64,000 nucleotides of DNA, from the NCBI RefSeq assembly GCF_028649655.1, contig NZ_JAQSLN010000001.1, positions 124,001-188,000 of the forward strand, read 5' to 3'. This document shows positions 44,123 through 62,038 of this stretch, piece by piece; position 1 is the first letter of the stretch; each line of letters starts with the position of its first letter. This stretch comes from Halobacteriovorax sp. GB3 (GTDB taxonomy: Bacteria; Bdellovibrionota; Bacteriovoracia; Bacteriovoracales; Bacteriovoracaceae). Made by a program: the position numbers and the translations under genes. The notes beneath the pieces are model-generated. The model was not told the origin of the DNA, searched no databases, and saw only the letters and a program-made list of their open reading frames with translations.

Positions 44123-44294
44123 AGCTATTTCCAAGCATTTCCCTTTGTGATATAAATAACAACGGTCCACGATCTATTGGACCCCATATCTAATAAATGG
44201 GGGTGCCCTGGTTTCGACGGGCCAACTGACGATTTGTCGGGCGTGTCCAGGTTGGTCTCCACGGTCCTGGTTAAAAGGAGTCCAAATCATAATT

Positions 44295-44330
44295 GCAGAA
44301 TCTAATTTTGCTCCAGCTATGGCCGCTTAA
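44295..44330 (+). other. tmRNA proteolysis tag reading frame
   Basis: Codons GCA to GCT followed by TAA encode AESNFAPAMAA. The tag starts at Ala and ends in hydrophobic MAA, suitable for ClpXP or ClpAP-like recognition. The resume codon is inferred from its position and from the Ala start usual in Proteobacteria. Confidence 0.85.
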
Positions 44331-44566
44331 TATATTTAACGCCGCCGCTTAAATAGCTTGAGGGGTTAGCATCCAAGAAACAGAAGCTAACAACCCAGTT
44401 GAGTGTGCTGACTAACTACACTTCGAGTCCGTCGGGACAGCTCGTTAATCTTTCACCGAGGTTCGCTGAGTTCACAAACTCAGACAGTCTTGTCTTCTGA
44501 CGATAAATGAAGACTACACACGTAGGCCGCTTTTTTGACGTTGGTTCGGACGCGGGTTCGATTCCC

Positions 44567-44579
44567 GCCACCTCCACCA
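44567..44579 (+). repeat. attL: direct repeat at the ssrA 3' end
   Basis: GCCACCTCCACCA is the last 13 bases of tmRNA and recurs exactly at 61989-62001. Integration at the 3' end of ssrA is a classic site for tyrosine-integrase elements. Confidence 0.8.
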
Positions 44580-45235: not shown

Positions 45236-48004
45236 ATGAGGTTTAAATTTGCACAAGGTGCTGTGTGGAGACGTTGGGATTTACATATTCATAGTCCAGA
45301 TAGTGTCCTTGCAAATCGTTTTGAAGGAAATGATTACAATGATAAGTGGGATAAATATTTAGAGTGTCTTGAGGCGATTAAAGACATTTCAGTCGTTGGT
45401 GTCACTGATTATTATAGTGTAAGTGGATACAAGAAAGTTAGACAGTTTAAGAGTGAAGGGCGCTTAAGCAATATTGATCTCTTTTTACCGAATGTAGAAC
45501 TTAGGCTTGATCTAAGAACACAGAGTAATGGAACAGTAAACTTGCACATAATATTCAATCCTAAGATTGTTAACGAACTTGATAGACGCTTCTTCTCAGA
45601 GCTTAAATTCGAGTACTCTGATAAAATTTATAAATGTCTAAGGGATGATCTAATTCGTCTTGGGAGAGATTTCTCTAATAATCAAGAATTGCCAGAAAAT
45701 GAGGCTCTTAAATGTGGAACTAATCAGTTTAAGGTTTCGCTAACTGAGTTGAAGCGATTATTGAAGACTGATAATGATTTAAGGTTAAACTCATTTATTA
45801 TTGTTCCAAATAGTTCTACTGATGGTAACTCAGGAATTCAGGAAAGTGGTTTTGCAGCATACAGAGAAGAAATTTACAGACTTTCTGATGCTATCTTTTC
45901 TGGCAATCCCAATGATAGGAAGTATTTCTTGGGAGAGTCTTGCCCCAGAGAGGAACTCGATAGAAAGTACGGTGGACTAAAGCCTTGTGTCCATGGTTCG
46001 GATGCTCATTCTTTGATTAAAGTTGGCAGACCAGATCAATATCGAAATTGTTGGATCAAGTCTGACCCATCATTTGAAGGCTTAAAGCAAATAGTTCTCG
46101 AGCCATCATCTAGGGTTGCTATACAAAAGGATAACCCTTTATTTTCTTTTAAGAGATCCTATTTTTCAGAGTTCGTAGCAACGCCATGTCGAATTTTTAA
46201 TGAATCCTATGTTTCAACCTCAGACTTTAAAATACCTTTAAACCCATATATGGTTTCAATTATTGGCGGACGAGGAACAGGTAAAAGTATTCTTCTAGAT
46301 TTGTTAAAACGAACGTTTTTTGATTCTAGTACTGGGAGATTTTCAAAGATTATTCACAATGACTTTAGAGTGTCTGTAACAAAAACTGATGGGGAAGAAA
46401 ATGACTACGCTTTAGGCGAGGAAAATTATCTTGATTACCTTCATGTTTCTCAAGGAGACGTAAAAGCCGTTGTAGACGATGCAGCCAAACTCGATGTTGA
46501 AATAAAAAGAATGCTAGGTATGCCTAGTGATGATATTGAAATATCTAATGAGAACTTAAAACAAATTGAAAAAATCGTTGAAGTTAAGGGGTTGTTTGAA
46601 GTTCTGGATGAGGAAGGAAATCAGAAACATTCTAAGGATAAATTATTAAAGGATATCTCAAAGCACAAAAAACTAATTAAGACTATTACTACAGATGAGA
46701 ATCAGGAGTTAATAGAGAGGTACAGGTTAAATGAATCTAAAATTGGGAAGATTGATAAGAGTTTATTAGATAAAGCTGAACTTGAAAAACAATTTGAAGA
46801 ATTTAGTAAGCATACAAAAAATGTAATAGAAAAACTCAATATGATTACAGATACAATTGATATTCCTCTTCCAGATTTTTCTAAACAAGTATCTAAACTT
46901 GAAGAGTTGGGGAAGTACCAGGCCAGTCGTGCAGAAGAGATTGAAAAAGAGAACATTAAGATTAAAGATGATTTAAAAAGTAGAGGTGTTGATGGAGATA
47001 TTTCTTATTTATTAGATAAAGTAAAGGAGTATCAAGTTAATATAAATCACAGTGAGAAAGAAATAGATAAAATAGTAATTAAAGAAAATGAATATAAAAT
47101 GCAGTTTGAAGAACTCAAGCAAAGTACTGACTCCATGAGACAGAGATATGATGAGTATATTGCGGATATCACTTCTAGATGGAATGAGTTAAAGAATGGA
47201 AAAGATACATGGTCAGAAGAGCAAAAAGAACTTAATGCAGAACTCATTTCTAGTGTTGAGGTCTCAGGTGAGTTAATATTTGATGTTGAAAAGTTTTATG
47301 AGAAGCTATTAGAAGGGTTGAACAAAGGGAAATTTAGGGCATCAAAGGGAGAAGACAAATATTCAAAAGCAGTAAAAGTATTCGGAGTAGATAGTTATCA
47401 AACTTTTATAGACTTACTATCTAATAAGAAAATGATCAATGTTGACGATGGCGAGCCTTTAAATCTTGAATCATTTGTTTTAGCTCAGATGTTTGTGAAA
47501 AACGGAGAAAGTGATTTCTTAAAAACTCTTTTTTCAAGTGACCAGAGAGAATATTACTTGAAAGTTTTAACTCGAATAACTTACCAAGGAAAAAAACCTG
47601 ACCAATTATCTGTTGGTCAAAGGGGAACTTTTTATCTGTGCTTGAAATTAGCGACAAACACTTTTGGCTCGGCTCTAGTCTATGATCAACCTGAAGATGA
47701 TTTAGATAATAATTTTATAGTAAATGAATTGATTCCACTACTGAGAAAAATCAAGAAGTATCGTCAAGTTATTCTGGTTACACACAATGCAAATGTTGTT
47801 GTTAATTCGGATTCTGAGCAGGTTATTGTTGCATCAAATATTGGAGAAAAACTTTTTTATGTATCAGGATCAATAGAAAATACTTTTAGGGATACAGGTA
47901 CTCAGGATGCTTTAATGAAACAAGGTATAAAAGAACATGTATGTGACACTTTAGAGGGCGGGCTTAATGCATTTAAAGCACGTGAGAAGAAATATGATCT
48001 TTGA
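45236..48004 (+). CDS. TrlF-like protein: PHP domain joined to an SMC-like ATPase
   Basis: The 922-residue protein has an N-terminal PHP phosphoesterase domain with DLHIH (His17, His19), VTDYY at 57 and HGSDAH (about 253-258) as metal motifs. It is followed by Walker A GGRGTGKS (344-351), a long coiled coil (about 455-690), an ABC-like signature LSVGQRGT near 795 and Walker B ALVYDQPEDDLD near 815, with HN in VTHNAN as switch. This matches TrlF-family AAA-like ATPases, which are often found in defence loci. Nuclease action driven by ATPase sensing is inferred. The unknown gene at 48114 follows by 109 bases. Confidence 0.85.
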   Translation: MRFKFAQGAVWRRWDLHIHSPDSVLANRFEGNDYNDKWDKYLECLEAIKDISVVGVTDYYSVSGYKKVRQFKSEGRLSNIDLFLPNVELRLDLRTQSNGTVNLHIIFNPKIVNELDRRFFSELKFEYSDKIYKCLRDDLIRLGRDFSNNQELPENEALKCGTNQFKVSLTELKRLLKTDNDLRLNSFIIVPNSSTDGNSGIQESGFAAYREEIYRLSDAIFSGNPNDRKYFLGESCPREELDRKYGGLKPCVHGSDAHSLIKVGRPDQYRNCWIKSDPSFEGLKQIVLEPSSRVAIQKDNPLFSFKRSYFSEFVATPCRIFNESYVSTSDFKIPLNPYMVSIIGGRGTGKSILLDLLKRTFFDSSTGRFSKIIHNDFRVSVTKTDGEENDYALGEENYLDYLHVSQGDVKAVVDDAAKLDVEIKRMLGMPSDDIEISNENLKQIEKIVEVKGLFEVLDEEGNQKHSKDKLLKDISKHKKLIKTITTDENQELIERYRLNESKIGKIDKSLLDKAELEKQFEEFSKHTKNVIEKLNMITDTIDIPLPDFSKQVSKLEELGKYQASRAEEIEKENIKIKDDLKSRGVDGDISYLLDKVKEYQVNINHSEKEIDKIVIKENEYKMQFEELKQSTDSMRQRYDEYIADITSRWNELKNGKDTWSEEQKELNAELISSVEVSGELIFDVEKFYEKLLEGLNKGKFRASKGEDKYSKAVKVFGVDSYQTFIDLLSNKKMINVDDGEPLNLESFVLAQMFVKNGESDFLKTLFSSDQREYYLKVLTRITYQGKKPDQLSVGQRGTFYLCLKLATNTFGSALVYDQPEDDLDNNFIVNELIPLLRKIKKYRQVILVTHNANVVVNSDSEQVIVASNIGEKLFYVSGSIENTFRDTGTQDALMKQGIKEHVCDTLEGGLNAFKAREKKYDL

Positions 48005-48113
48005 TAGATAGGTTGGCGTAACATGCTGTTTTTATGTAACTTTGAAGTAGATAAAGAAAACTTAACTGAATTCATCGGGCAAAGCTGTCGAAGAGCTATT
48101 ACTGGAGTCATTT

Positions 48114-49202
48114 ATGTTGAATAAGTATAACTTTGAATTAGCTCTAGAGCAGGTCGCAGAAGACTTTTATTGTCATGGGGCCATAAACTTCGGCAAGCTT
48201 AGAAGTGGTAACTCTGAAGAAAATGAAGTTTATTTTAAAAATGTTGCTAAGGATTTAAGAGAAAAACTAAATTGCCAGCAGATAATGCTTAATTCTGGTG
48301 ATTGTCCAGACTCTGGTATTTTTGGAGAGTATGATTATAAACATGAAGATGCAGTAGATTGGGAGTTAGTAGAGAAGTGTGAGCTTGTTGCGATTGAAGT
48401 CGTTGGTGCAAACAAGCAAGTTAGATATATAGAGATTTCGACATCAGATTTAGAAGATTTTGAAATTCCAATTTATGCAAAATTCTCAGATAAAGGAAAA
48501 GAGAAGCATAACTCAATAAGATTGAAGTTAAATGACTATAACTTTTATGGTGAATTCTTTGGTGTCGAATATAAAGCGTCAGAAAGCAAAAGTGAAACCT
48601 CTATAAGTGTTGCTTCGTTTAACTCAACATGCCCTAGTTCAACAAAAACTAAAGTTTTGAGAGTTAGAATGATTCATAATTTTAAAGCATTTGGGAAAAA
48701 AGAGATATGCGGTTATAAATTAAAATCTTGTGAAATTGAACTATCTATTAATTTTAGTATTTATTATTTAATTGTTAATGATGCTCCTGAAGGAAGAGTT
48801 TCTGCTATCAAACAAGTTTTTGTTTGCGATGGAAATTTCTTTGCACCAGACATGAAAGAGGAGGAAGCAAATAAGCTTTCTAAGGAGATAAAACCTGAAA
48901 CTCTTGGAATAGATTATGATTTATATCGTGTAAAATTAAGGTATAGACCATTTTTTGATTCAAGGACAATTAGGGCAAATGGGTTTGGTTTATATACTTC
49001 ATGGGAGCCAAAGATTCCTGCGTTGGAAAAAGAAGAGAAGCAGCGTGAAGAATTGATGAAAGAAGTAGAGAGAGTACAGCAAAACTTCACTGACTCAGAG
49101 GATGAAGTAACATCTGATAAAGTTTTGGGTGGGGATGAAAACCTTGATAATGTAATTTATCTTACACTCAGAGATGAAAGAATAAAGAAAAGAGCAGCCT
49201 AA
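48114..49202 (+). CDS. unknown protein paired with the TrlF-like ATPase
   Basis: This 362-residue cytosolic protein starts behind TGGAG. The middle (about 90-270) is beta-rich, with segments such as VAIEVVGANKQVRYIEI and ELSINFSIYYLIVND. The C-terminal 60 residues are charged and probably disordered. I recognise no family. It lies downstream of TrlF in the same direction, and its end nearly touches the convergent methyltransferase gene, which ends at 49205. A partner or effector role for TrlF is possible but only from position. Confidence 0.65.
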   Translation: MLNKYNFELALEQVAEDFYCHGAINFGKLRSGNSEENEVYFKNVAKDLREKLNCQQIMLNSGDCPDSGIFGEYDYKHEDAVDWELVEKCELVAIEVVGANKQVRYIEISTSDLEDFEIPIYAKFSDKGKEKHNSIRLKLNDYNFYGEFFGVEYKASESKSETSISVASFNSTCPSSTKTKVLRVRMIHNFKAFGKKEICGYKLKSCEIELSINFSIYYLIVNDAPEGRVSAIKQVFVCDGNFFAPDMKEEEANKLSKEIKPETLGIDYDLYRVKLRYRPFFDSRTIRANGFGLYTSWEPKIPALEKEEKQREELMKEVERVQQNFTDSEDEVTSDKVLGGDENLDNVIYLTLRDERIKKRAA

Positions 49203-49204
49203 AA

Positions 49205-50314
49205 CTAGACAGCAATCTCTTTATTGTAATGAAAAGCGTATTTCTTAAAATCTTTATTTTTATCTATTGATAGTACTTTACCAGAGAGAGACTCTCTAAG
49301 TGCATTTCCTATAGCTGTAGCCATTTTTACTGGAACAGCATTACCAATTTGCTTAAAAACTGAAGTTGTACTTCCTACAAAATGAAAGTCCCATGGGAAT
49401 GATTGAATAGATGCGGCTTCACGAGCTGTTAAATATCTACACTCTATAGGATGGTAATACATTGTTCGTGAAGTAAGAATTGTGAAAGAAGGGGAGCTGT
49501 ACGAAAGTCTTTGTAGTTTCGTTTGTCTGAACCTACCTTCTCTAAGCTCTTCCCAGATAACATCATAATGAAGGCTTTTAGGTAAATAGGCTTCTTGATC
49601 TTTTTTATATCTAATTCCGCACCCTTCTGGAATATATTTAAGTCGCTTTCGATCTAGATCATTTTTAACTTGAGCAGTAGCAGGATCATTGTATGTAGCC
49701 TTTTTCTTGATGGATTTAAAAGCATCTTTTACCGTTGCTACTTTTTTAGTTCCTCTTTCGCCATGTGAAGGTGTTGGAAAGATCGGCTGCATTCCTTCCT
49801 TGCAACCAATAATGATAGTTCTTCTTCTTTTCTCTGGTACACCATACTCATCCGAAGAAAGAACTCGAGCATCTAGTTGATATCCTAAATCTTCGAAGAT
49901 AGAAAAGATCTTTTTTAGAACATCTTTGTTTTTATTCGCTAATAACCCTGTTACATTTTCTATAACTACTGCCTTGGGCTTTGCAAGTCTTACAATTCTT
50001 ACAAACTCTAGAAAAAGAAAGTTTCTAGGATCGTCACTATTACCTTTTCCTATAGTAGAGAATCCTTGGCAAGGCGGACCACCAACAACAAGGTCAACAC
50101 TTTCTCCCTGTAGTAGATCTTTAATCATCGAATTCTTGAGATCTCTAACATCACCACAATAAGTTTCAGCATCTTTATGATTTAATTTAAATGTCTCAAT
50201 AGCATCTTTATCATGATCTATACCTAGGAGACATCTGAAACCAGCTTGTTCTAATCCGTATGAGAGGCCACCACAACCACTAAATACATCTATAAAATTA
50301 TATATTTTTTCCAT
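49205..50314 (-). CDS. C5 cytosine-specific DNA methyltransferase
   Basis: A SAM-dependent enzyme, 369 residues, methylating cytosine at C5. Motif I FIDVFSGCGGLSYGL (7-21), motif IV GGPPCQGFS with catalytic Cys82, motif VI VIENVTG near 116, motif VIII RRRTIIIG near 168 and motifs IX-X near the C-terminus are present. The variable target region (about 200-270) would decide the sequence methylated. It faces away from a gene with HNH motifs (50470-51648), the typical arrangement of a type II restriction-modification system. The start codon has no clear ribosome site and may be leaderless. Confidence 0.92.
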   Translation of the reverse strand: MEKIYNFIDVFSGCGGLSYGLEQAGFRCLLGIDHDKDAIETFKLNHKDAETYCGDVRDLKNSMIKDLLQGESVDLVVGGPPCQGFSTIGKGNSDDPRNFLFLEFVRIVRLAKPKAVVIENVTGLLANKNKDVLKKIFSIFEDLGYQLDARVLSSDEYGVPEKRRRTIIIGCKEGMQPIFPTPSHGERGTKKVATVKDAFKSIKKKATYNDPATAQVKNDLDRKRLKYIPEGCGIRYKKDQEAYLPKSLHYDVIWEELREGRFRQTKLQRLSYSSPSFTILTSRTMYYHPIECRYLTAREAASIQSFPWDFHFVGSTTSVFKQIGNAVPVKMATAIGNALRESLSGKVLSIDKNKDFKKYAFHYNKEIAV

Positions 50315-50469
50315 ATATATATTTTGACATGCAATTAATGACAGGCCAAGTCAGTAATAAATTCCGGCCTTGACCAAACCTTGCTTATATAAAAGTGGAT
50401 AATTACTCTCGGATAATTATGTAAGAGAGAAACTCTTTATATTTAATTTATTTCGTATAGAATTTAGTA
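50315..50469. promoter_or_regulatory. divergent control region of the methyltransferase and HNH genes
   Basis: This AT-rich 155-base spacer carries two direct copies of GGATAATTA (50397-50405 and 50411-50419), 14 bases apart, close to the HNH gene. They may bind a regulator that delays restriction until DNA is methylated, but no separate C-protein gene is present. The element is judged by eye. Confidence 0.4.
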
Positions 50470-51648
50470 ATGAAGACAAAATTAGTAGAATTAATAAGTA
50501 AATCAAAAGATGACTTTATCTCCGAGTATTTGAATAACCTACCTGAGGAAGTAAGATATTCAGTCGATAGAGTTGATGGCTTAAAAGAAAATACTATTAG
50601 TAGAGTAGACTTAATTGAAAAGTTTAATAAGTTGGTCTCTAGTAATATAGAAAAATTCAAAGAGAACTTTATTTCTCATATTTCTTCTATGGAAGGTTAT
50701 CTTGCGTATAGTTCAACTCCAAAGGCATTTGAAAAAGCATGGATGTATCGAAAGACTAAGATCTCAAGTTTATCTCTGTTTGAGGTTCAAGACCTCTTAT
50801 CAAATCATGCGCAATTAATCCCTATGATAAAATCGGAAAACTTATTTAACTCTGGTGAAAAAGGGATGATCAAATCGAAAGATGATGGCTCCTTTTTGTA
50901 TGGAATCAGACATTCTAAAGGAAACTATGATGATGTCTTAGACTCGCTAGGAAACTTTAGTTATCAACCTCCTTTTGATGCTCTAGGTATGCTTAGATAC
51001 AGATGGCTTGAATATTTAACTGTTGAAGCAAAACTACCAATCTATATGTATGTCACAATGTGGTTTAAACATGAGGTACTTGAATCTACAAATCATGTAA
51101 CGATGATATGCCCTGTGAAAATAACAAAAAGGCATAAAGAGTTTGATGCTCCTTTAAGTTTACAGTTAATAACAATTGATGAGGCTATAGAGCATACTAT
51201 GATGATTAGATCTATGGATACTTTAGATCTAGCATCTAAAATTAGATCAGGTCTACCGGATGAATATGTAATCAAGTTTAATTATGAAAACATCAAGTCT
51301 AATACAAAACTGAGAAATCATTTAATCAATTGGGCAGTTACTAAAGGAAAAAAGTGTCCTGGTGATAAATGCCAAAATATCGAATTTAAGAGAATTAAAA
51401 ATAAGTCTAAGATACACCTGGGTCATATTGTTCCACAAAACTGGGGAGGAATCTTTCAATTCCTACAGGAAAAGAATCACATTCATCACCCAGACAATCT
51501 ATACCTTTCATGTTCTGAATGTAATATTTCTTTAAATTCATCCTTTCCTGGAGATCAATTACGTAAGAACATAATTGATGAGAAGTATGGAACAATTGGG
51601 GATTATATAAGATCAGACTTAAGTTATTTCTCAAAGGTAGATGAATGA
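50470..51648 (+). CDS. HNH nuclease, probable restriction endonuclease of the type II system
   Basis: The 392-residue protein has a C-terminal HNH domain: Cys296 and Cys301 (CPGDKC), His319 in HLGHIVPQNWGG, Asn343 in HPDNLYLSC, with Cys348 and Cys351 completing a zinc site. The N-terminal 280 residues show no family I recognise and may read the target sequence. It is transcribed away from the C5 methyltransferase with a shared control region. Cognate cutting at the methylated site is inferred from the pairing. Confidence 0.75.
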   Translation: MKTKLVELISKSKDDFISEYLNNLPEEVRYSVDRVDGLKENTISRVDLIEKFNKLVSSNIEKFKENFISHISSMEGYLAYSSTPKAFEKAWMYRKTKISSLSLFEVQDLLSNHAQLIPMIKSENLFNSGEKGMIKSKDDGSFLYGIRHSKGNYDDVLDSLGNFSYQPPFDALGMLRYRWLEYLTVEAKLPIYMYVTMWFKHEVLESTNHVTMICPVKITKRHKEFDAPLSLQLITIDEAIEHTMMIRSMDTLDLASKIRSGLPDEYVIKFNYENIKSNTKLRNHLINWAVTKGKKCPGDKCQNIEFKRIKNKSKIHLGHIVPQNWGGIFQFLQEKNHIHHPDNLYLSCSECNISLNSSFPGDQLRKNIIDEKYGTIGDYIRSDLSYFSKVDE

Positions 51649-52080
51649 TAGTATATGATTCTACAAAGTCAGGGGTTCGTACTGACGTTAAGAACAATCT
51701 TATTTAAAAAAAGATTAGATACTTTCTAGAGAGGTACAGGGTATAAGACCCCCCAAATAGAGAAATTTCATCAAGCCTAAATTCAATGATAGTTTTGAAA
51801 AAATATAAAAAATATGATCAGTTTTAAATGGTACTACTCATAATGAGGAGCTTTTAAATCTCATAGACTCAGCCACTAACCAATGAGAATATTAAGGTAC
51901 ATTTCTCTTCTGAGGGTTTAAGCAACCCTTTTCCAATTTACTCCTTTCATTTTTTCTAATTAAGTTTTGGTTTGAGGCCTTGATGGACAAATTTTCTTCT
52001 TAATCGTTAAGATAACTTAATTTATTTTTATTATTTTAAAACCGACAATTATACAAGTTAACCAAGAGATAAGGTTTTAT
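51649..52080. other. intergenic region with second copy of the island repeat
   Basis: The 432-base spacer contains copy B of the direct repeat and no gene I can support. The AT content is high. AAGG precedes the next ATG at 52081. A possible older unit boundary lies here; see the findings. Confidence 0.5.
51846..51909 (+). repeat. island direct repeat, copy B
   Basis: A diverged copy of the sequence that follows ssrA (44606-44670), again starting AGGAGCTTTT and including TAACCAATGAGAA. The hairpin arm before it is decayed (CTCATAATGAG). The 13-base ssrA end itself is not found in front of this copy. Confidence 0.6.
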
Positions 52081-53016
52081 ATGGGAAAAATAACATTAAG
52101 AAAAGTTGTTAGTACTGTTGCTAAGATAAATAGAGAAATTGAGCGAGAGAGAAAAAGACAAGAGCGTGAATCAAGGAAAAGAGATAAGCAACTAGAGAAA
52201 GAACAAAGGTTACGATTCCGAGAATCTGAGAGACTTAGAAAAAAGAGAATAAGAGAACAAGAAAAAGCTTTAAAAGAGAAAGAACGTGAAAATCAGAGAA
52301 TAGAAAAAGAGAAGAAGAAGCAAGAAACTCGATTGGCCAAAGAAAATGAGAAACAAAAGAAAAGAGAAGAGAATAAAGCTTCTAAGGCTAAGGAGAAAGA
52401 GTCAAAGGAAGCAAAAAAAATATTAACAAAATTGACTATTGAAGAGCATGAACTTGGAAAAGAGTATTCTACTAATTTTAGAGTACCTGATTTTAAATTC
52501 GATCTTAGTAGAGAGATCTTATTACTAAAATCTGAAGATTTATCTATCTCTAGAAAAAGAATTAAACCTATCTATTTAGACAGTATTTTGCTTTCAGGTA
52601 AATATAACTCGGTATTTGGAATGGACGGTCTTCGAGATTTTAAAAACTCTTTAAATGATTTGATGAAGAGCATCGATAAAGATCCTATCATTTTGAGGGA
52701 GTCATATTTGGAGGACTTAATTTTTAATACTGGTTTATTTTATGAATATGAGTTTGCACCAGAAAGAATTCAAGAAGTTGAGGACTTCAGTAACTGGAAA
52801 TCATTTTATAGACTTGTAAGAAATATGACAGACTATAAGGCTATTTCAGAAATAAGTTTTGATTATCTTAAGGGGGAGTACCCAAAACATTTTTCTGAAT
52901 TTAGTGAAGATAATGTAAATGAATTAAGAAGTGTATTTGATGTTCTAGTTCCTCAGGTGAAATTTGATTTTGAGGAATATCTAAATAAAGTCGTAAGCAA
53001 TCAATTTATAGCATAA
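52081..53016 (+). CDS. coiled-coil protein, function unknown
   Basis: The 311-residue protein begins with about 110 residues of very high charge (Lys, Arg, Glu) that form a long helix or coiled coil (about residues 12-122). A folded C-terminal region (about 125-311) has aromatic residues but no motif I know. It starts an apparent operon: the next gene begins 12 bases after its stop. Because the neighbour is a membrane-anchored coiled-coil nuclease-like protein, the two may form a complex. Confidence 0.68.
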   Translation: MGKITLRKVVSTVAKINREIERERKRQERESRKRDKQLEKEQRLRFRESERLRKKRIREQEKALKEKERENQRIEKEKKKQETRLAKENEKQKKREENKASKAKEKESKEAKKILTKLTIEEHELGKEYSTNFRVPDFKFDLSREILLLKSEDLSISRKRIKPIYLDSILLSGKYNSVFGMDGLRDFKNSLNDLMKSIDKDPIILRESYLEDLIFNTGLFYEYEFAPERIQEVEDFSNWKSFYRLVRNMTDYKAISEISFDYLKGEYPKHFSEFSEDNVNELRSVFDVLVPQVKFDFEEYLNKVVSNQFIA

Positions 53017-53028
53017 AATGGAGTTTAT

Positions 53029-54483
53029 ATGAATAACCAAGTTGGAATAATATTTCTTTTAAGTCTATCTGTCATCGGTTTGTTGTTTTTAATAATAAAA
53101 GTCTGGAAGTCAAAAAGAATAATCGAAGATCAAGTTAAATATCTTGAGGAAGAGAAAGCGAAGAAAGAAGAATTAGAAAAATCATACTTTGATTTGTCTA
53201 AGTGGAAGAAAGATGCTGAGCTAAAGCTAGTCAAGCTAAATGAATACGAGATCGAGAAGAATGAGTTATCAAAAAATGTCAGCGAACTTACTACATGGAA
53301 GGAGGAGACTTCAAAACTTATACCTGAATGGAGAAGAAAAAGTGATATTGTTGATCAAAATATTCGTTTGGTTGAGGAAAGCGCTGATCTGGAGGGAAAG
53401 AAAAATCTTTTGCTAACAGATATTGAAAGTATGAAGTTACAGCTAGGTGAGCTTTTAGAATATCAATTACTCGAAGAGAGCGGTGTTTTCAATTATAAAT
53501 TTCATTTTCAAGAAATTAATCAATACGATGATGCTTTGGCTATAATTAAAGAAAGTGAAAAGGTATTAGTAAAAACGAGTAAAGCTTTTAATACTAAAGC
53601 GAAAGATCTTGTCGGAACACCCATTATGAAAAGTCTTGAGAAAATTTCATTGCTTGCATTTAATAGTGGAGCGGACTTAATAACTTCAAATATTAAATTT
53701 AATAATTATGAATCATGCGTAAGTAAGTTAGAAAAACTTTTCATAAATATAAATAACTGCTTAGGTCCTCTAAGTTCCGAAATATCTTCTGCTTATTACG
53801 AAGCAAAGGTAAAAGAGATGACGATATCTCTTGAATATGAAGAAGAGAAACAGAGAATTAAACAAGAGCAAGATGATATTAAGGCTCAAATGCGTGAAGA
53901 ACAAAAAAATCTACAAGAAGCAGAAAAGGCTAGAGACAAGGCAATCGAAGAAGAGGAGAAACTCGAAATTGCACTAGAAATGGCACGAAAAGAGCTTGAA
54001 GGGAAGGCCGAGGCTGAAAGATCAGATTTTGAAGCTAAAATTAAAGAACTAGAGAAGCAGTTGGAAGAGGCACACCAAGAAACAGAAAGAACTATATCAA
54101 ATGCACAGATAACAAGTGTAGGTCACGTTTATGTGATTTCGAACCTAGGATCTTTTGGAGAGAATATATATAAAATCGGAATGACTAGAAGAGATGATCC
54201 GATGGATAGAGTAAGAGAGCTAGGCGATGCATCAGTACCTTTTCGATTTGATGTTCATGCAATGGTTTTCTCAGATAATGCAAGAAAGCTAGAGGCCGAT
54301 TTGCATAAATACTTTGATGAAAGAAGAGTTAATAAAATCAACAAAAGAAAAGAGTTTTTTACCGTATCATTAGAGGAAGTTGAAAAGGCTTGTGATGAGC
54401 TTGGCTATAATATTAAACTGACAAAGTTAGCAGAAGCTAGGGAGTACAGAGAATCTTTAGACTATGATTTAGAGGTCGCTTAA
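53029..54483 (+). CDS. membrane-anchored DUF4041 protein with C-terminal GIY-YIG domain
   Basis: A single N-terminal membrane segment (about residues 5-24) is followed by coiled coil, a DUF4041 region (about 180-290), a second coiled coil (about 270-360), and a GIY-YIG-like T5orf172/MUG113 domain from residue 364 with GHVYVISN, NIYKIGMTRR (GIY-YIG equivalents) and a Glu in ADLHKYF downstream. The 484-residue layout matches DUF4041-GIY-YIG proteins found on phages and islands. A nuclease that acts at the membrane on incoming DNA is a reasonable inference, not shown. Confidence 0.78.
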   Translation: MNNQVGIIFLLSLSVIGLLFLIIKVWKSKRIIEDQVKYLEEEKAKKEELEKSYFDLSKWKKDAELKLVKLNEYEIEKNELSKNVSELTTWKEETSKLIPEWRRKSDIVDQNIRLVEESADLEGKKNLLLTDIESMKLQLGELLEYQLLEESGVFNYKFHFQEINQYDDALAIIKESEKVLVKTSKAFNTKAKDLVGTPIMKSLEKISLLAFNSGADLITSNIKFNNYESCVSKLEKLFININNCLGPLSSEISSAYYEAKVKEMTISLEYEEEKQRIKQEQDDIKAQMREEQKNLQEAEKARDKAIEEEEKLEIALEMARKELEGKAEAERSDFEAKIKELEKQLEEAHQETERTISNAQITSVGHVYVISNLGSFGENIYKIGMTRRDDPMDRVRELGDASVPFRFDVHAMVFSDNARKLEADLHKYFDERRVNKINKRKEFFTVSLEEVEKACDELGYNIKLTKLAEAREYRESLDYDLEVA

Positions 54484-54598
54484 TATATTGGAGTTTAATC
54501 TTCTATATTGCGTACTTCTTCTTTCTTTTGACCTAAATTGAAAGGGTTAAGTCGGTTAGACCTATCACCATCTTGCAACTAAAAAGCAAGAGGTGAAA

Positions 54599-54922
54599 AT
54601 GATAACTAAAAAAAGAAGATTAGAAGCACTTAAGAAAGCTAGTCGAAAAAAAACAAACACAGCCATTGCAATGATGCACTTCTATAACCCAATAGGAAAA
54701 GGTGACTGGTTTATTACTCATGCTCAAGAGATTGAAGGAGAGATTGTATTCATTGGAGTCGTTTATTTCAATTCGTTTCAATGGCAGGAATTTTCTCTTT
54801 CAAAATTGAAAAATACAAAACTACCATTTGGCGAAAAAATTAAATATAATCCGAAGTTTCAACCAGTTTCTATTTCTGTTTTAAAGCATCTTTTAAGTAG
54901 TGGCGAAGATTTTCGTCCTTGA
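54599..54922 (+). CDS. DUF2958-like small protein
   Basis: The 107-residue protein contains YNPIGKGDWFITHAQ and FIGVVYFN, with the FNPIG/GDWTWYITE-like layout of DUF2958 proteins that occur on conjugative elements. The ATG at 54599 follows GAGG by five bases; a GTG at 54593 is in frame. Its last 53 bases overlap the convergent helicase gene. Function is unknown. Confidence 0.65.
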   Translation: MITKKRRLEALKKASRKKTNTAIAMMHFYNPIGKGDWFITHAQEIEGEIVFIGVVYFNSFQWQEFSLSKLKNTKLPFGEKIKYNPKFQPVSISVLKHLLSSGEDFRP

Positions 54923-56531
54923 TAAACACGAAAGTGCCGAGCATACCTCGTGTTAAGAGGACGTAGTATATATTTTTAATGTAATTCTCTAGCTCGATAT
55001 TTTCTTTATCGGTACCATTGATTGGAGTACCATTTTTATCAAAGTACTTACTCTTGTTGATTTTTATTTTCATATCTGTTGTATCGAGATAGATGTCATC
55101 ACCAATAATGATGCCTGCATAGTTTAAGTCTTGCCCCTGAAGAGTGTGAATACATCCAATTTCATTTACAGATTTTGGGTCTTGAACCCATCCAGGAATT
55201 TTCGTGTTCCACTGTGCTTTTAGGCCTTCTATCTCAAAATCATAAAGAGTTTTATCTTTTTTAGAGATCCATTTTACATAGTATCCCGACCCCATACGAC
55301 AGTGACCAAGTTCTTTATTCTTTTCTTTGATTTCATTGTGCAAACTTTGGAGATCATCGAAGACGCTTAGTTCATAATCTCCAAGATCTTTATTATTGGG
55401 TTTCTTATTTGTAATTTGTAAAAGATCTTGAATGAATTGAAGGTAGTTAGCACCTTTTTTCACTCTAAATTGCTGTGTTAGTTTAAAAGTTTTGTAATTT
55501 TTAGGATTGACCTCATTCAAATTTAAATCAGCAGGTCTAATTGTTTGCTTTTCATCATACATAAGAATTAAGTGTTTTGATTTCTTTATCGCGAAGTCTA
55601 ATTCATTGTATTTACCATTTTCTAAGTGCTTTAGGTCTTTGGTTTGTTTGTTGAAGTGCCTTTTTAGTCTATGCGCTTCATCGACGATAATTAAATCATA
55701 TTTCTCATTAAGATCTTTACTCATATCAATAGGCTTAATTATTTTGGCCTTTATTTTTGCCTCTCTTAGCATCTTTTTCAGTGTTGATTGAAGAGAGGTC
55801 TGAGGAACGCAAATTGCTATTTTGGCATCTTCAAGCATGTATTTCTTTAGAAGTAGGTGAACAATTTTTATGATCAAAAGGGATTTTCCTGTACCAGGCC
55901 CTCCGGAAATCAAAATTGATTCTTCTGTCTCTTTAAGTTTTCTCTTTTTAACAATACTTCCATCGAAGCTAATAATTTCTTCATTGGACTGACATTCTTC
56001 TGTAATTAAATTAACAACGCTGTTTATAATATCCATTTGCTGATCAGAGAATTCTTTAAAAGGTGAAAGCTTAAAAAGATCTGTGTTTTCAAGATCTATA
56101 AGTTCGTTATTAACAAGTTTTTTTTCTTTTAATTGATTCCAGATATTTCTAAAAAGAGACTCGTTAATCTCTTTTTTCATGTAGTATTCGTGAGAATTTT
56201 GATTGAGCTTTGTATTTATGATTTCAAACTTATTATCTGCGAACATGTAATTGATTAGCTTCGATTCAATATCATAGATGGCACTTTTATTAAAAAAATC
56301 CGAAGTGATAATCTTAGCTCTAATTAGATTCTTCTTTCTTTTTTCTGTGTTCTTACTATGGTCAGATACTCTTTTCCTAAAGTTTGAAGTCTCACCAATA
56401 TAGAGGTGCTTATCATTGTGAATTAAATATGTGACACAGTGTTTCTCATACTCTTTGATACTCTTTTCAAGGAGTGGGAATTTGTCCTCTATAATTTCAA
56501 ACTTGATTTCAGTCGCTATTTTTGAATCCAT
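54870..56531 (-). CDS. GIY-YIG nuclease domain joined to DUF2075 helicase
   Basis: The N-terminus (residues about 32-105) is a GIY-YIG nuclease-like domain with TYLI and YIGET (44-48), Arg52 and Glu89 as likely active residues. A DUF2075 P-loop NTPase follows, with GGPGTGKS (210-217), Walker B LIIVDEAHR near 283, LTQQFRV near 347, and VLLTRGMLG near 540. Such proteins are linked to defence against foreign nucleic acid. The 553-residue protein is convergent with the DUF2958 gene and divergent to the MazG-like gene. Function is inferred from domain content. Confidence 0.82.
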   Translation of the reverse strand: MDSKIATEIKFEIIEDKFPLLEKSIKEYEKHCVTYLIHNDKHLYIGETSNFRKRVSDHSKNTEKRKKNLIRAKIITSDFFNKSAIYDIESKLINYMFADNKFEIINTKLNQNSHEYYMKKEINESLFRNIWNQLKEKKLVNNELIDLENTDLFKLSPFKEFSDQQMDIINSVVNLITEECQSNEEIISFDGSIVKKRKLKETEESILISGGPGTGKSLLIIKIVHLLLKKYMLEDAKIAICVPQTSLQSTLKKMLREAKIKAKIIKPIDMSKDLNEKYDLIIVDEAHRLKRHFNKQTKDLKHLENGKYNELDFAIKKSKHLILMYDEKQTIRPADLNLNEVNPKNYKTFKLTQQFRVKKGANYLQFIQDLLQITNKKPNNKDLGDYELSVFDDLQSLHNEIKEKNKELGHCRMGSGYYVKWISKKDKTLYDFEIEGLKAQWNTKIPGWVQDPKSVNEIGCIHTLQGQDLNYAGIIIGDDIYLDTTDMKIKINKSKYFDKNGTPINGTDKENIELENYIKNIYYVLLTRGMLGTFVFIKDENLRHYLKDALKQK

Positions 56532-56649
56532 AATCTCTCTAACGTATTGATATTTTGATTGATTATACCTCTAGATTTAACTTTCTTCTATGAGGTAACT
56601 CTTTGTCTAATGGCAAACAATTTTGTATATTCTCTCTCGGGAGATTTGT

Positions 56650-57009
56650 ATGAAAACTATAGATGTAGAAAAGTTGAATTCAGTAGTATCTAACTTCATA
56701 GAAGAGAGAGACTGGGATCAATTTCATTCAATTAAAAACTTATCAATGGCCTTGTCTGTTGAGACTTCTGAGCTAGTTGAAATCTTCCAGTGGTTAAAAG
56801 AAGAAGACTCCAATAACGTAAAAAATGATCCGAAACTTAAAGCAAAAGTTGAAGAAGAGATTTCAGATATCTTCATCTATTTGATGAGAATTGCCATTAA
56901 GTCAGGCGTTGATATTGAAAGTTCTGTTCTATCAAAAATCGAAAAAAATTCTGAAAAGTACCCTGTTGAAAAGGCTAGGGGAAATGCTCGGAAGTATACT
57001 GATTTGTAA
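56650..57009 (+). CDS. MazG-like nucleotide pyrophosphohydrolase
   Basis: Members hydrolyse nucleoside triphosphates, often dCTP or noncanonical ones, to monophosphates. The 119-residue protein has the EExxE and ExxD metal motifs: ETSELVEIFQWL (about 42) and EEEISDIFIYLMRIA (about 76). It starts at ATG 56650 behind GGGAGA; a start at 56623 is less likely. It is cytosolic. On defence islands such enzymes can lower dNTP levels, but housekeeping is equally possible. Confidence 0.8.
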   Translation: MKTIDVEKLNSVVSNFIEERDWDQFHSIKNLSMALSVETSELVEIFQWLKEEDSNNVKNDPKLKAKVEEEISDIFIYLMRIAIKSGVDIESSVLSKIEKNSEKYPVEKARGNARKYTDL

Positions 57010-57201
57010 TTCGTCTTTTACTTATCTTTCCTAAAAAAGATATCTCTCTTTTTTCTAAAATCATAATTTCTTGATTATTAATCTTTGATGCTTTGTTTAG
57101 AAAACTTGACTCAGGCTGTCCATTGAAAATTCCGAGTTAATAATAAGCTTTAACAGAAAACTAGTTACATCAATTAATTATAAATTATTAGAGAGGATTG
57201 T

Positions 57202-57441
57202 ATGAGGTACGAATATAATATGTTGCAAATTCCACCATCAATTGAGGTTGCTACTAAAGACAAAGGTACAGAGGCAGCAACTTACTTACAAGAGAAAGTA
57301 AGTGAAATGTCTAACCTAGGTTGGGAATTTATGCGTATTGATAGCTTTGGTGTCAATGTTCTCGGAGGTTGTTCTAATGGAGGTAAAGATACAAGTCATC
57401 TTTACTATGTAATTACTTTCAGAAGAGCTGCTAATGAATAG
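57202..57441 (+). CDS. DUF4177-like small protein
   Basis: A 79-residue protein with YEYNMLQIPPS, NLGWEFMRID and YYVITFRR, the pattern of DUF4177 proteins. It starts behind AGAGG. The yidD gene overlaps its last eight bases, so the two are co-translated. Function is unknown. Confidence 0.65.
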   Translation: MRYEYNMLQIPPSIEVATKDKGTEAATYLQEKVSEMSNLGWEFMRIDSFGVNVLGGCSNGGKDTSHLYYVITFRRAANE

Positions 57442-57655
57442 TGTTGCGATTCTTTTAATCAAATTTTATCAGGTTTTCATTTCAAAAATGCTGGGAGAGG
57501 GAAAGTGTCGCTTTGAACCTTCATGTTCTTCTTACGCTCTATTTGCGTTCCGAAAGCATAAATTTATTAAAGCATATACCTTAAGCCGCAAACGTTTTAG
57601 CAGGTGTTGCCCTCCTTATGGTGGAGTTGATTATGAGGGGATTAGTGATGATTAA
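57434..57655 (+). CDS. yidD: membrane protein insertion efficiency factor YidD
   Basis: YidD aids insertion of inner-membrane proteins near YidC. The 73-residue protein shows the family core CRFEPSCSSYALFAF and the late CCPPYGG, with basic residues between. In most genomes yidD sits between rnpA and yidC; here it is on an island between small unknown genes, so it is likely a second copy. It overlaps the DUF4177-like gene. Confidence 0.9.
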   Translation: MNSVAILLIKFYQVFISKMLGEGKCRFEPSCSSYALFAFRKHKFIKAYTLSRKRFSRCCPPYGGVDYEGISDD

Positions 57656-57926
57656 ATTAGTTCTTATAATTGGTTTCTCATTTTCTATGAATTCTTTTGG
57701 TGATGAATTGGTTGAAGGATCGCTATTTATTACTCGTTCAGCTTATAAATCTAATTATGGGCCTTGTGCTTGTCCTGATGATCCTGCAGCGAATGGCCGA
57801 TGTGGAAAGCGCTCAGCTTTATGTAAGGATAGAGGTCATAATATTTTAGATTGCTCAGGGAGAAAGATAAAGTCTATTTTTGAGTATAAGAAGCTCAAAA
57901 AGAAATTGTGTGGAAAGGACTTTTGA
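57648..57926 (+). CDS. small secreted Cys-rich protein
   Basis: The ATG at 57648, behind GAGGGGATT, gives a 92-residue product with a signal peptide (about 1-19) and the motif GPCACPDDPAANGRCGKRSA with five further Cys downstream or within. Similar CPDD-x-NG-x-CG-x-RSA motifs occur in small secreted proteins whose function I do not know. The gene overlaps the end of yidD by eight bases. Its role in the island is unclear. Confidence 0.65.
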   Translation: MIKLVLIIGFSFSMNSFGDELVEGSLFITRSAYKSNYGPCACPDDPAANGRCGKRSALCKDRGHNILDCSGRKIKSIFEYKKLKKKLCGKDF

Positions 57927-58039
57927 TGATTGTCTCTACTCTTAGATAAATATTAATCTGTAGCTCAGAGTTCTGTTTGCAAGTTAGAAATTAGTTTTGG
58001 TTGCTACTAATAACGTATATGAAAATTAATGGAGGTATT

Positions 58040-58726
58040 GTGAAATTTTTAATACTTACTCTTTTTACTTTTACTTTATTTGGGTGCTCTGACCCAATGA
58101 ATACAAAAATAACGAAAGAGAATTATAAAAAAGTCCTTGAGGGGGTAAGAAAAAATACTGATGAAAAAACCTATGAGAAAGTACAGGCTATAGTGAAATT
58201 AGCTGAGTTTGCTAAGCTTGGAGGTAAAGACCCAATCGATTTTTTAGAAGGAAAATCATTTAATGAGCATTTAAATTATTTTAAGCACAAAGCTGAAGAA
58301 GAGCAAGTAAGACTTAAGCAAGAAGAGCTAAAGGCATTGCAAGTAGCAAAAGCTGCTGAAGATAAAATCAAAGAAAGAAGTCAATATTTAAAGACACTGT
58401 CGTGGATAAAGAAAAAGAGCAAAGATAAGTACGGTTTTAATAAAAAAGTTGTTGTGGGAATTCATATGCAAAATATGAAGAATAAAGATATCGACGCATT
58501 TGAAGGAACTATTTATATCTACGATAAACTTAACAATCAATTAGCAAAGCTTGGAGTAAAAAGCACAGATGTAATTAAAGCAGGCTCTAAATCTAATTTA
58601 ACTTGGGTTTTCCCTACGATTGATTTTTCTAATAACATGAAAGAGGTTTATGAAACCTCTCCTGGTTCTTTAAAGTTTAGATTTGAACCAAGTAAAATAC
58701 TACTTAAAAATGGAACAGAAATCTAA
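58040..58726 (+). CDS. lipoprotein, function unknown
   Basis: The GTG at 58040 lies four bases after GGAGG. It gives 228 residues with a signal peptide whose lipobox is LFGC. A helical charged region (about 75-120) precedes a C-terminal beta-like domain (about 135-225), with IHMQNMKNKDIDAFEGTIYI typical of a DUF-type domain for protein-protein contacts. I recognise no family with confidence. It stands alone between repeats and the small secreted gene. Confidence 0.65.
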   Translation: MKFLILTLFTFTLFGCSDPMNTKITKENYKKVLEGVRKNTDEKTYEKVQAIVKLAEFAKLGGKDPIDFLEGKSFNEHLNYFKHKAEEEQVRLKQEELKALQVAKAAEDKIKERSQYLKTLSWIKKKSKDKYGFNKKVVVGIHMQNMKNKDIDAFEGTIYIYDKLNNQLAKLGVKSTDVIKAGSKSNLTWVFPTIDFSNNMKEVYETSPGSLKFRFEPSKILLKNGTEI

Positions 58727-58917
58727 AGTTTAGATTTAAATAATTTGTAAGGTACTCGAGATGATGAAGACGTTATAATGCACCTGTCGGAATAGGGAAG
58801 ATTAAGGACGTATACTCGTAACACTTAAAGACAACTCTAGTCTATAACTCGATATTTCTATGTTAGAAATTTATATTCATATTTGTAGCAGTTAAATTAT
58901 TGCATGAGATATAAAGC
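58727..58917. other. intergenic region leading to the inverted repeat
   Basis: The spacer 58727-59122 is 396 bases long. Its first part has no gene or motif that I can support; the rest is the left copy of the inverted repeat, followed by the ribosome site AAAGGAG at 59110-59116. Confidence 0.4.
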
Positions 58918-59057
58918 ATATGTGAACCGTGAATTAATGCGAGTTTAAATCAAACTGAGAATTGACGAGTGCCGGGCGTATGGTGAGATGAGAACACCAC
59001 GATAGTAGGGATAATAAAGTAAGACTCCGCCACCATAAGCTGGAAGGAGATAATAAT
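58918..59057 (+). repeat. inverted repeat, left copy (possible group II intron remnant)
   Basis: This roughly 140-base sequence is the diverged reverse complement of 59738-59875. The best-kept parts are GATGAG, CGATAGTA, AGACTCCG-CACCA and GGAAGGAGATAATAAT. The last segment is a ribosome site, followed by no long frame here. The motif GATAGTAG before a ribosome site recalls leaders of group II intron proteins, but no domain V hairpin or reverse transcriptase frame is seen. Confidence 0.55.
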
Positions 59058-59122
59058 CTCTCTGCAATACGCATGTTTCTTGGAGTATGGTACGATTAGA
59101 TCTTCAATAAAAGGAGTTCTTT

Positions 59123-59479
59123 TTGAATTATAAATTAGATAAATTAAAGCATTTCAGTATTTATTTAATAATTAATTTAATTATAGCTATGATTTATCTC
59201 TCTACTCTGAGTGTAGAACTCTTCATCGGAACCATTGGTATTTACATAGTTCCTCTCTTAATTGGAAGAGGAAAAATTCGTTATAAGAGCTTCAATGAGC
59301 TCCGTTTGAAGTCATGCATTGTTGAAATTCTTATTTTTTCTTTACTAGGATTTGTTTGTTATCAACTTAATGAGACAGTGCTTGATTACAAAAAATTAAT
59401 GAATATCATACTGTCATACTCATTTTCTGTTGGATATATTTCTTTGTTTATTGATGTTAAGAATGAAAATAAGAAATAA
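59123..59479 (+). CDS. small membrane protein between the inverted repeats
   Basis: The 118-residue protein has about four hydrophobic segments (near 10-30, 32-48, 65-85 and 92-110). The start is a TTG at 59123, six bases after AAAGGAG at 59110-59116. It stands alone between the two arms of the inverted repeat. No family is recognised. It could be cargo of a small element. Confidence 0.5.
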   Translation: MNYKLDKLKHFSIYLIINLIIAMIYLSTLSVELFIGTIGIYIVPLLIGRGKIRYKSFNELRLKSCIVEILIFSLLGFVCYQLNETVLDYKKLMNIILSYSFSVGYISLFIDVKNENKK

Positions 59480-59568
59480 GGCTTTTCATCATTCAATTGG
59501 AAAAAAATGAGGGCACATTCTAAATTTCGAAATAATGTCATGACCCAAGTTTACTCATTGGTGGATTA

Positions 59569-59724
59569 ATGAATAGGATCTCAATCGTAACATATGTTCA
59601 AGTCAGCTCGAAGTATCCTTTTTGGAAAGAAGTTTACGGAATTAAGGGGCAGAGAGTAGATTACTTATATAAGGAACATTTACTCCTATCTAAACAAAAC
59701 TATTTAATAACGTCAGAAAATTAA
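59569..59724 (+). CDS. possible small gene or remnant
   Basis: A 51-codon frame (MNRISIVTYVQVSSKYPFW at its start) with plausible composition but no ribosome site at good spacing. The rest of the spacer 59480-59568 is AT-rich without features. It may be a truncated gene. Confidence 0.2.
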   Translation: MNRISIVTYVQVSSKYPFWKEVYGIKGQRVDYLYKEHLLLSKQNYLITSEN

Positions 59725-59737
59725 AAAGCGTAGAAAC

Positions 59738-59875
59738 ATTATTATCTCCTTCCAATTTGTGGTGACGGAGTCTCACTTTGGTATTTCTACTATCGCAATG
59801 TGCTCATCTCATTATTTGTGGCGTTCGGCTTAGATCTTCTGGGCTTCGTTTTATCTAAGTAGCCGTTCACATGTT
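59738..59875 (-). repeat. inverted repeat, right copy
   Basis: The partner of 58918-59057 in opposite orientation. On the minus strand it ends in GGAAGGAGATAATAATG, a ribosome site directly before an ATG that opens a frame of only eight codons. Similar-looking but unpaired sequence continues to about 60000. The rest of the spacer up to the hip operators (60001-60130) shows nothing. Confidence 0.55.
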
Positions 59876-60130
59876 CGCTGTTAGGCTGATTCCTTTCTCT
59901 CCTTACCCCCGGCGCTCCTCGTCTCTCTCTACTAAGCATGTAGGTGCTATTTTTTACCGTCCACAATCTTTTGCTTATCATATATTCACGACAAATTGTA
60001 ACTATCTTAATACCGGTATTTGTGGACCTTATGCGTTCTTAAAATGTAATGAGTTTATTTCAGACTCATATTCTGACATAGGTTGGTTACAGTAGATGTG
60101 TAACATATATAAGAATTTAGAGATATTAAT

Positions 60131-60245
60131 GTATACTAAAGTAGTCATTTTTGCTTGTTTTCAATAGGATTAACCTTTCTGTCTACTGGAGTAGACTTTT
60201 ATTGCTAAATTCTTGAAAAAGCATATAATGTATACTGGAGTATAC
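60131..60245. promoter_or_regulatory. three palindromic operators of the hip operon
   Basis: GTATACTAAAGTAGTC (60131-60146), GTCTACTGGAGTAGAC (60181-60196) and GTATACTGGAGTATAC (60230-60245) share the form GTMTACTRRAGTAKAC. Their centres are 50 and 49 bases apart, close to whole helical turns. The third overlaps the ribosome site of the antitoxin gene. They fit autoregulation by the HipB-like repressor. Confidence 0.75.
60202..60229 (+). promoter_or_regulatory. promoter of hipB-hipA
   Basis: TTGCTA (60202-60207) and TATAAT (60224-60229) are 16 bases apart. The -10 abuts the third operator, so repressor binding would block transcription. GGAG at 60237-60240 serves the ATG at 60248. Confidence 0.65.
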
Positions 60246-60247
60246 AA

Positions 60248-60496
60248 ATGAGTGAAGAAGTATCAGTTATAAATGACAGCAAAAAGATAGCAACAATGAT
60301 CAAAAAGATCAGAAAGCAAAGAAAGATCACACAGACTGAGCTTGCCGATTATGCAGGCTTATCGCGTGCAGGGATCGCAAAGATAGAATCTGGCGCAAGT
60401 GACATTAAGCTTTCAACATTGATCTCTATCGCAAACTTACTTGGCCTTGATCTTTATTTAAAAGATAGAGGTAGTGAGCGAGGGGAGTCGCTATGA
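60248..60496 (+). CDS. hipB: HipB-like antitoxin and repressor
   Basis: An 82-residue XRE-type DNA-binding protein (HTH about residues 20-70, with ITQTELADYAGLSRAGIAKIE). It neutralises HipA and represses its own operon through the upstream palindromes. The hipA start codon overlaps its stop (ATGA). The C-terminal tail of HipB here is short. It is likely to form a dimer on each operator. Confidence 0.85.
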   Translation: MSEEVSVINDSKKIATMIKKIRKQRKITQTELADYAGLSRAGIAKIESGASDIKLSTLISIANLLGLDLYLKDRGSERGESL

Positions 60497-61758: not shown

Positions 61759-61988
61759 TTTAAATACTAAAACTAGCCATGAAGTTGTATCGCTAGACTA
61801 TTTCTCTAAGTAGTAATATACTAAAAACAACAAAAGCTTCAAAGAAAGCTCTTGCGATTAGAATCCTCCGAATGACCTGTATTAATAGTGTTTTCGGGCG
61901 CGGGATGCCTTTGCGTAGTCCCTGTTTTGGCTATTTTGGCTACACTCAAAAAACTACTTCAATGTATTTAGGGTGTTACGAACAGGAG
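61759..61988. other. right end of the island, non-coding
   Basis: No gene is seen. The region includes CGGGCGCGGG (about 61891) that recalls the ssrA T-arm but does not align. No attachment arm binding sites can be recognised by eye. Confidence 0.35.
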
Positions 61989-62001
61989 GCCACCTCCACC
62001 A
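61989..62001 (+). repeat. attR: second copy of the ssrA 3' end
   Basis: GCCACCTCCACCA identical to the last 13 bases of tmRNA at 44567-44579, in the same orientation. It marks the right end of the island. Confidence 0.8.
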
Positions 62002-62038
62002 TTCAACTTAAACTAAAAAACAAACAAACCGAAACCAA

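Follow-up and report, generated by a model that had tools for sequence, protein, structure and literature searches.

Does a long charged protein, encoded just ahead of a membrane-anchored nuclease, work with that nuclease, or does it simply lie beside it? The two genes sit in the window, the whole 64,000-nucleotide stretch of DNA that was analysed, which belongs to contig 1 of a 3.6 Mb genome; except where another locus is named, all positions are window coordinates. Gene A (52081..53016, forward strand) encodes a SNIPE-associated charged-helix protein of 311 amino acids, and gene B (53029..54483, forward strand) a SNIPE/PD-lambda-1 homologue of 484 amino acids. Both are real open reading frames (ORFs) with ATG starts and are placed, as the initial annotation had them, 12 bases apart. 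Reading of the forward-strand gap (53017..53028) reveals a ribosome-binding-site-like GGAG immediately 5′ of the gene B ATG, and no terminator-like site was found in 51600-54700. Gene A is present in a single copy in its genome.

Genomic setting

The window contains a tmRNA gene (44199-44579) followed by a run of defence-like genes (45236-63160). The run includes an ATPase with a Ppl match (45236-48004), a C5 methylase (49205-50314, reverse strand), a protein with weak HNH and PtuB matches located 5′ of the SNIPE pair (50470-51648), a Schlafen-group-3 helicase with a GIY-YIG domain located after the pair (54870-56531, reverse strand), and MazG-like, HipA and LanC-like genes. A search of the window for a duplicate of the tmRNA end gave no copy longer than 15 bases, and no clear att-type repeat was found there. 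In a genome of the same genus (G074, locus L427, 995-10374), short tmRNA fragments lie ∼4.9 kb downstream of the intact tmRNA start and are followed by what appear, on inspection by eye, to be a SIR2-type gene and type I restriction genes. From these fragments, the tmRNA is a possible integration hotspot.

Gene B is a SNIPE homologue

Main-text passages of PMC13190303 describe SNIPE as an inner-membrane nuclease that cleaves phage DNA while it is being injected. It is found in association with ManYZ, and tape measure proteins are probable further associates. Its defence is abolished by the E414A mutation and by loss of DUF4041. According to the same passages, one transmembrane segment is predicted in 59% of SNIPE homologues and two in 7%, PH domains are fused to some, and the variable N-terminal regions are suggested to act as adapters (PMC13190303, section 9). 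PD-lambda-1 is described in PMC9519451.

Gene B matches the PADLOC PD-Lambda-1 profile (PDLC03976) over nearly its entire length (E 8.2e-118, residues 13-479 of 484 against profile positions 11-472 of 491), as well as PHROG 1847 (E 1.3e-114). A membrane anchor, DUF4041 and a GIY-YIG end had already been recognised in this protein, and each is borne out. The membrane segment comprises residues 5-23 (mean Kyte-Doolittle hydropathy 2.99), DUF4041 residues 206-260 (E 7.8e-11), and the GIY-YIG domain residues 365-457 (T5orf172, E 2e-17; MUG113, E 4.2e-20), with all three Pfam matches above the Pfam cut-offs. As a reference we used L188, annotated as PD-lambda-1 in phage PhiR26_1 (PV340555), which carries E223, W257 and E414 at the residue numbers used in PMC13190303. 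Gene B is 36% identical to this E. coli SNIPE and has the same order of membrane segment, DUF4041, helix and GIY-YIG nuclease. The catalytic glutamate is also common to both, with E422 of gene B (codons of residues 421-423, 54289..54297, forward strand) aligned with E414.

The catalytic arginine and glutamate of the GIY-YIG fold have not been lost across homologues: among the matches listed, E422, R387, R388 and R394 are each conserved in 203/204 SNIPE clusters, and G365, Y368, K382 and G384 in all 204. Judged by its sequence, gene B is thus a full-length SNIPE/PD-lambda-1 homologue and adds a member to a known family. The first proposal for this locus, a nuclease tethered at the membrane that attacks DNA on injection, is therefore right in kind, and such a nuclease has already been published for SNIPE in PMC13190303, as its main text describes. 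Within the phylum of the window, SNIPE matches reach E ≤ 1e-10 in 15 of 368 genomes, a count that includes the genome of the window.

What sets the locus apart is the gene in front. E. coli SNIPE (L188) has no same-strand gene directly upstream, whereas in the window a 311-residue helix protein is encoded 12 bases before gene B. E. coli SNIPE is described as protecting without such a partner, and the main-text passages of PMC13190303 yielded no mention of a partner gene; the words “two-gene”, “coiled” and “accessory” are absent from the main text, and “operon” occurs three times, once for manXYZ.

Gene A: a predicted long charged helix with an end of its own

Gene A can be divided into a motif at residues 1-30 that it has in common with SNIPE partners elsewhere, a predicted long charged helix from residue 6 to about residue 120, and a C-terminal region. 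Lysine, glutamate or arginine make up 71 of residues 1-118. AlphaFold2, run without an alignment, models residues 6-128 as a single helix. Its block-mean pLDDT exceeds 90 across residues 11-90, while residues 122-311 mostly fall below 50 (whole-model mean pLDDT 57.5, pTM 0.30). The initial annotation of a 311-residue charged coiled-coil protein is correct in length and charge, with the refinement that the charged part seems to be one extended E/K/R-rich helix instead of a coiled coil.

Profile searches of Pfam, PADLOC and PHROG gave no family above the curated cut-offs and no nuclease-family match for gene A. The weak matches are CAF1A_acidic in the charged region (E 0.0011), PDC-S66 (E 0.057), B5 (E 0.071), TrlF_fam_ATP (E 0.084) and, at residues 248-284, phrog_835 (E 0.025); against PADLOC mREase_IV there was no match at E 0.1. 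The full-length protein has no relative in plasmids or phages and was found only in the window's genome. For residues 121-311, a search of 290 phylum genomes gave, besides gene A itself, nine weak and scattered matches (E 5.7e-5 to 0.008), and none was confirmed in genome contigs or viral contigs. We therefore rejected the idea that gene A is a conserved full-length partner, since no convincing relative of residues 121-311 turned up in the genomes or in genome and viral contigs. We likewise rejected the idea that gene A substitutes for an absent membrane anchor, which is ruled out in the window by gene B's own membrane segment.

Charged-helix proteins recur upstream of SNIPE

We surveyed the upstream genes of 204 SNIPE clusters (80% identity). 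They derive from 388 loci in which SNIPE has no fewer than 250 amino acids and is preceded by 350 or more bases of sequence; these loci are the best-scoring matches of several scans and form an uneven sample. Among the matches listed, a same-strand ORF of at least 60 amino acids lies at −30 to +60 bases from SNIPE in 87/204 clusters, and a charged-helix ORF lies directly upstream in about 11/204, leaving up to 193/204 without such a partner. The charged-helix set was chosen by ranking on charge and by visual inspection; some members may be false and others missed, and the figure of about 11/204 is therefore not a blind estimate.

Eight of the 11 are short or unique-ended. Relative to the SNIPE start they lie at +12 bases in the window (311 amino acids), +5 in L044 (98 amino acids, a Cytophagaceae MAG), −4 in L122 (110), +2 in L141 (154), +12 in L223 (94), +25 in L238 (93), +1 in L409 (97) and, as the ORF is drawn, −19 in L360. 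The other three are longer proteins, at +35 in L084 and −4 in both L101 and L411. In all of these the partner gene comes before SNIPE, the drawn ORFs being separated by −19 to +35 bases. The SNIPE homologue of L411 (1146-2486, reverse strand), which its long helix partner overlaps by 4 bases, has a proline-rich N-terminus and no TM-like segment. None of the 12 other SNIPE loci of the phylum that include upstream sequence has a comparable ORF directly upstream; in one of them (G092) a long partner lies 1.3 kb from SNIPE in divergent orientation, with small ORFs between.

Other kinds of upstream gene were also seen. The biggest cluster of upstream ORFs (33/109 in a redundant set) was set aside, as on visual inspection its members resemble phage repressors. 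An upstream transmembrane protein accompanies 6/66 SNIPEs without a transmembrane segment vs. 7/138 of the others, although several of these ORFs are doubtful. Small proteins encoded upstream of SNIPE in L423 (3097-3555, reverse strand), L329 (1219-1770) and L330 (1256-1807) resemble what we take to be PH-type membrane-binding proteins. Short membrane ORFs lie 7-45 bases upstream of SNIPE in L109 (4419-4676), L110-L113 (4417-4665), L054 (4235-4756) and L144 (3714-4217), and presumably resemble TM2.

The short partners of 93-110 amino acids are the closest counterparts of gene A, which has the same N-terminal motif, charged helix, gene order and few-base spacing, and differs in adding ∼190 residues without a convincing relative. 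They occur in contigs L122, L223, L238, L409, L436 and L437 and, annotated as “hypothetical protein”, on plasmids of Vibrio harveyi and Pseudoalteromonas carrageenovora. These two plasmids are among six plasmid SNIPE loci that we opened; in both, a 104-amino acid partner is encoded 3 bases upstream of SNIPE in a compact pair (104 and 480 amino acids), and the first 28 residues of the two partners are nearly identical.

Searches with the Vibrio partner itself approach the linkage from the other side. A tblastn search matched 3 of 72,556 plasmid records, namely its own, that of Pseudoalteromonas, and a third plasmid with a 36-residue fragment, where no SNIPE was present within the 6.1 kb taken. 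In viral contigs a scan turned up two new loci, in each of which 3 bases separate the partner from the SNIPE gene that follows it, and phage records contained no relative. All three full-length relatives besides the query are thus paired with SNIPE at 3 bases, though they are few and all close relatives; the Pseudoalteromonas protein was first met through SNIPE, and the other two were found without requiring it. Single searches with other short partners gave no match (L141 in phages, L122 in plasmids, L409 in plasmids and in phages), and L238 found itself alone in viral contigs.

Charged-helix proteins are recurrently linked to SNIPE, and a form of the pair does recur beside SNIPE elsewhere. 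The proposal of an undescribed two-part system holds to the extent that the N-terminal helix of gene A is like small proteins whose genes immediately precede SNIPE in other bacteria; gene A as a whole is found only here, and the nuclease half was already known.

A probable likeness of the helices beyond composition

Charged helices can resemble one another through composition, and gene A might be a separate gene of a crowded island that is merely adjacent to gene B. The many defence-like genes in the island and the lack of a relative along gene A's whole length in the searches made would suit this reading. To weigh it, we searched 5,642 ORFs of the 204 SNIPE loci with profiles of the partners, the key profile being built from six short charged-helix proteins (93-110 amino acids, −4 to +25 bases from SNIPE) with gene A excluded. 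Using the first 30 residues and bias correction, gene A is the best of the 5,642 (E 1.7e-4), with the runner-up at 0.44. With bias correction at other lengths, gene A ranks second at 40 residues (E 0.0046), first at 60 (E 6.2e-4) and third at 110 (E 0.032), and without correction it is first at all four lengths. In the 60-residue and uncorrected runs, many of the matches that come next belong to further SNIPE neighbours of the set. The uncorrected runs also pick up helices within some SNIPE proteins themselves (for example L020, E 1.5e-8), and part of the likeness is therefore compositional.

In leave-one-out searches of the same ORFs, gene A, L223, L238 and L409 each came first when held out, L122 fourth, L360 64th and L084 168th, while L044, L141, L101 and L411 were not recovered. 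With a 14-member profile, gene A scores 10.3 against −6.3 for its best shuffle, and none of 1000 shuffles reaches its score; searched as whole ORFs with bias correction, it ranks only 11th (E 12). When the other 13 members were held out, nine came first (L044, L122, L223, L238, L101, L409, L092, L045 and L039) and L141, L084, L360 and L411 did not. Shuffles also mark the weak members, whose scores are reached by 53/1000 (L141), 8/1000 (L360) and 344/1000 (L084). Across profile settings, gene A was first when held out in 16/18 and near the bottom in 2/18, both of them bias-corrected with the wide short-partner set.

The settings in which bias correction weakens or removes the match thus speak for mere adjacency. 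Against it stand the best match, which comes from the first 30 residues and so from a region holding only the start of the charged stretch, the failure of every shuffle to reach gene A's score, and the operon-like spacing with no terminator-like site found. We consider a chance neighbour improbable. Comparison of the sequences makes it likely that the helix of gene A is homologous to the SNIPE-side helices, with a likeness that would go beyond composition.

History of the pairing

A FastTree phylogeny of the nuclease half, computed without support values, places the SNIPEs of L223, L238 and L409 as mutual neighbours, with L122 more loosely attached. Those of L044, L141, L360 and the window lie away from this group, and the long-partner type is scattered. 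The window SNIPE has no close relative on the tree (nearest 1.31), and its five nearest do not include the group of L223, L238 and L409. Both observations argue against a single recent inheritance. Because the partners lie apart on the tree, the pairing either arose on more than one branch or is old and often lost. Near L122 on the tree, the SNIPE of L410 has an HTH-like ORF upstream and no charged-helix ORF.

This last locus bears on a second explanation, in which gene A is a guardian or inhibitor that, much like an antitoxin, shields host DNA from the nuclease up to the moment at which entry is detected. When SNIPE lacks its membrane segment, it cleaves the host's own DNA and is toxic, as main-text passages of PMC13190303 describe, and a tightly spaced gene encoded ahead of its target would suit such a role. 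However, gene B retains its own membrane segment, anchored SNIPE is reportedly not intrinsically toxic (PMC13190303, main-text passages), and L410 shows a SNIPE close to a paired one without a charged-helix gene upstream. A guardian function is unlikely on this evidence.

Long partners and possibly exchangeable ends

A second type of partner is longer. Long SNIPE-side partners occur in L039, L045, L092, L084, L101, L411, G092 and a Fibrella plasmid, and have an N-terminal helix that resembles that of gene A (weakly in L084), followed by a conserved C-terminal domain that is not detectably related to gene A's end. Unlike gene A, which is upstream, some lie downstream of SNIPE or divergent from it: in L039 and L045 the related long protein is downstream and convergent, in L092 downstream on the same strand, and on the Fibrella plasmid 42 bases after SNIPE. 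An alignment search found the long partner in 2/356 phylum genomes, one of them G092. The model built from five long-partner sequences is confident (pLDDT 90.7) and gave no PDB match at E ≤ 0.001. A kinship between the C-terminal part of gene A and these proteins was rejected, with an hhalign probability of 0.1 of 100.

The long partner also occurs apart from SNIPE, which is absent from six of the seven plasmid loci opened. One of the seven has SNIPE, one, from Geobacillus, has a staphylococcal-nuclease-type neighbour, two have neither, and three lie near genes annotated as TerB/TerC, InaA kinase, DUF475, StiP or HpcH, neighbourhoods that we take to be of ter type. In the Geobacillus plasmid (L417, 3354-5569), a DUF4236 protein with the long-partner domain is encoded 77 bases before the staphylococcal-nuclease-type gene, and the module may thus also work with a different nuclease.

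That gene A serves as another effector or as a phage decoy, whose C-terminal part acts on DNA or phage proteins after the helix brings it to SNIPE, would fit the match of the L411 partner to PADLOC mREase_IV (PDLC03663, positions 9-382 of 544, E 4.5e-33) and the Geobacillus arrangement, in which a helix-plus-domain module may accompany another nuclease, but is quite unlikely given gene A's lack of a nuclease-family match, its mostly low-confidence C-terminus and the hhalign result.

A proposed accessory adaptor for SNIPE

For the reading that we favour, a two-gene anti-phage variant of SNIPE with the helix protein as accessory adaptor, we would put the chances at about even. An adaptor is the most likely role, since it is the helix that stays constant; the C-terminal part is missing from the short partners, common to the long ones and unique in gene A. 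Gene A would then be an accessory subunit with a basic, partly amphipathic start and a single charged helix of ∼115 residues, which at 1.5 Å per residue would span about 17 nm. The helix would run beside the charged helices of SNIPE itself or beside the membrane, and would carry at its end the C-terminal region so far found only in this strain. As an adaptor, gene A may position the nuclease or set which entry event gets recognised. Physical contact between the two proteins, co-transcription of their genes, the adaptor role itself and phage defence by the pair are what we infer from the layout and likenesses described above.

Within the reach of the searches, the linked helix protein is a putative SNIPE accessory not reported before, of which gene A, with its own end region, is an unusual form. 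A broader picture, which we put forward only tentatively, is that SNIPE has a so far unrecognised second subunit in the form of a modular charged-helix adaptor, either a short rod or a helix with exchangeable ends, which would set the phage entry events that SNIPE sees. The same helix module may serve other nucleases and would then be a targeting component used widely in bacterial DNA defence, of which this strain has a version with a distinct end region. SNIPE recognises phage by its own location and not by sequence, and the linked helix protein would be a concrete second place in which its phage specificity may lie, besides the variable N-terminal regions.
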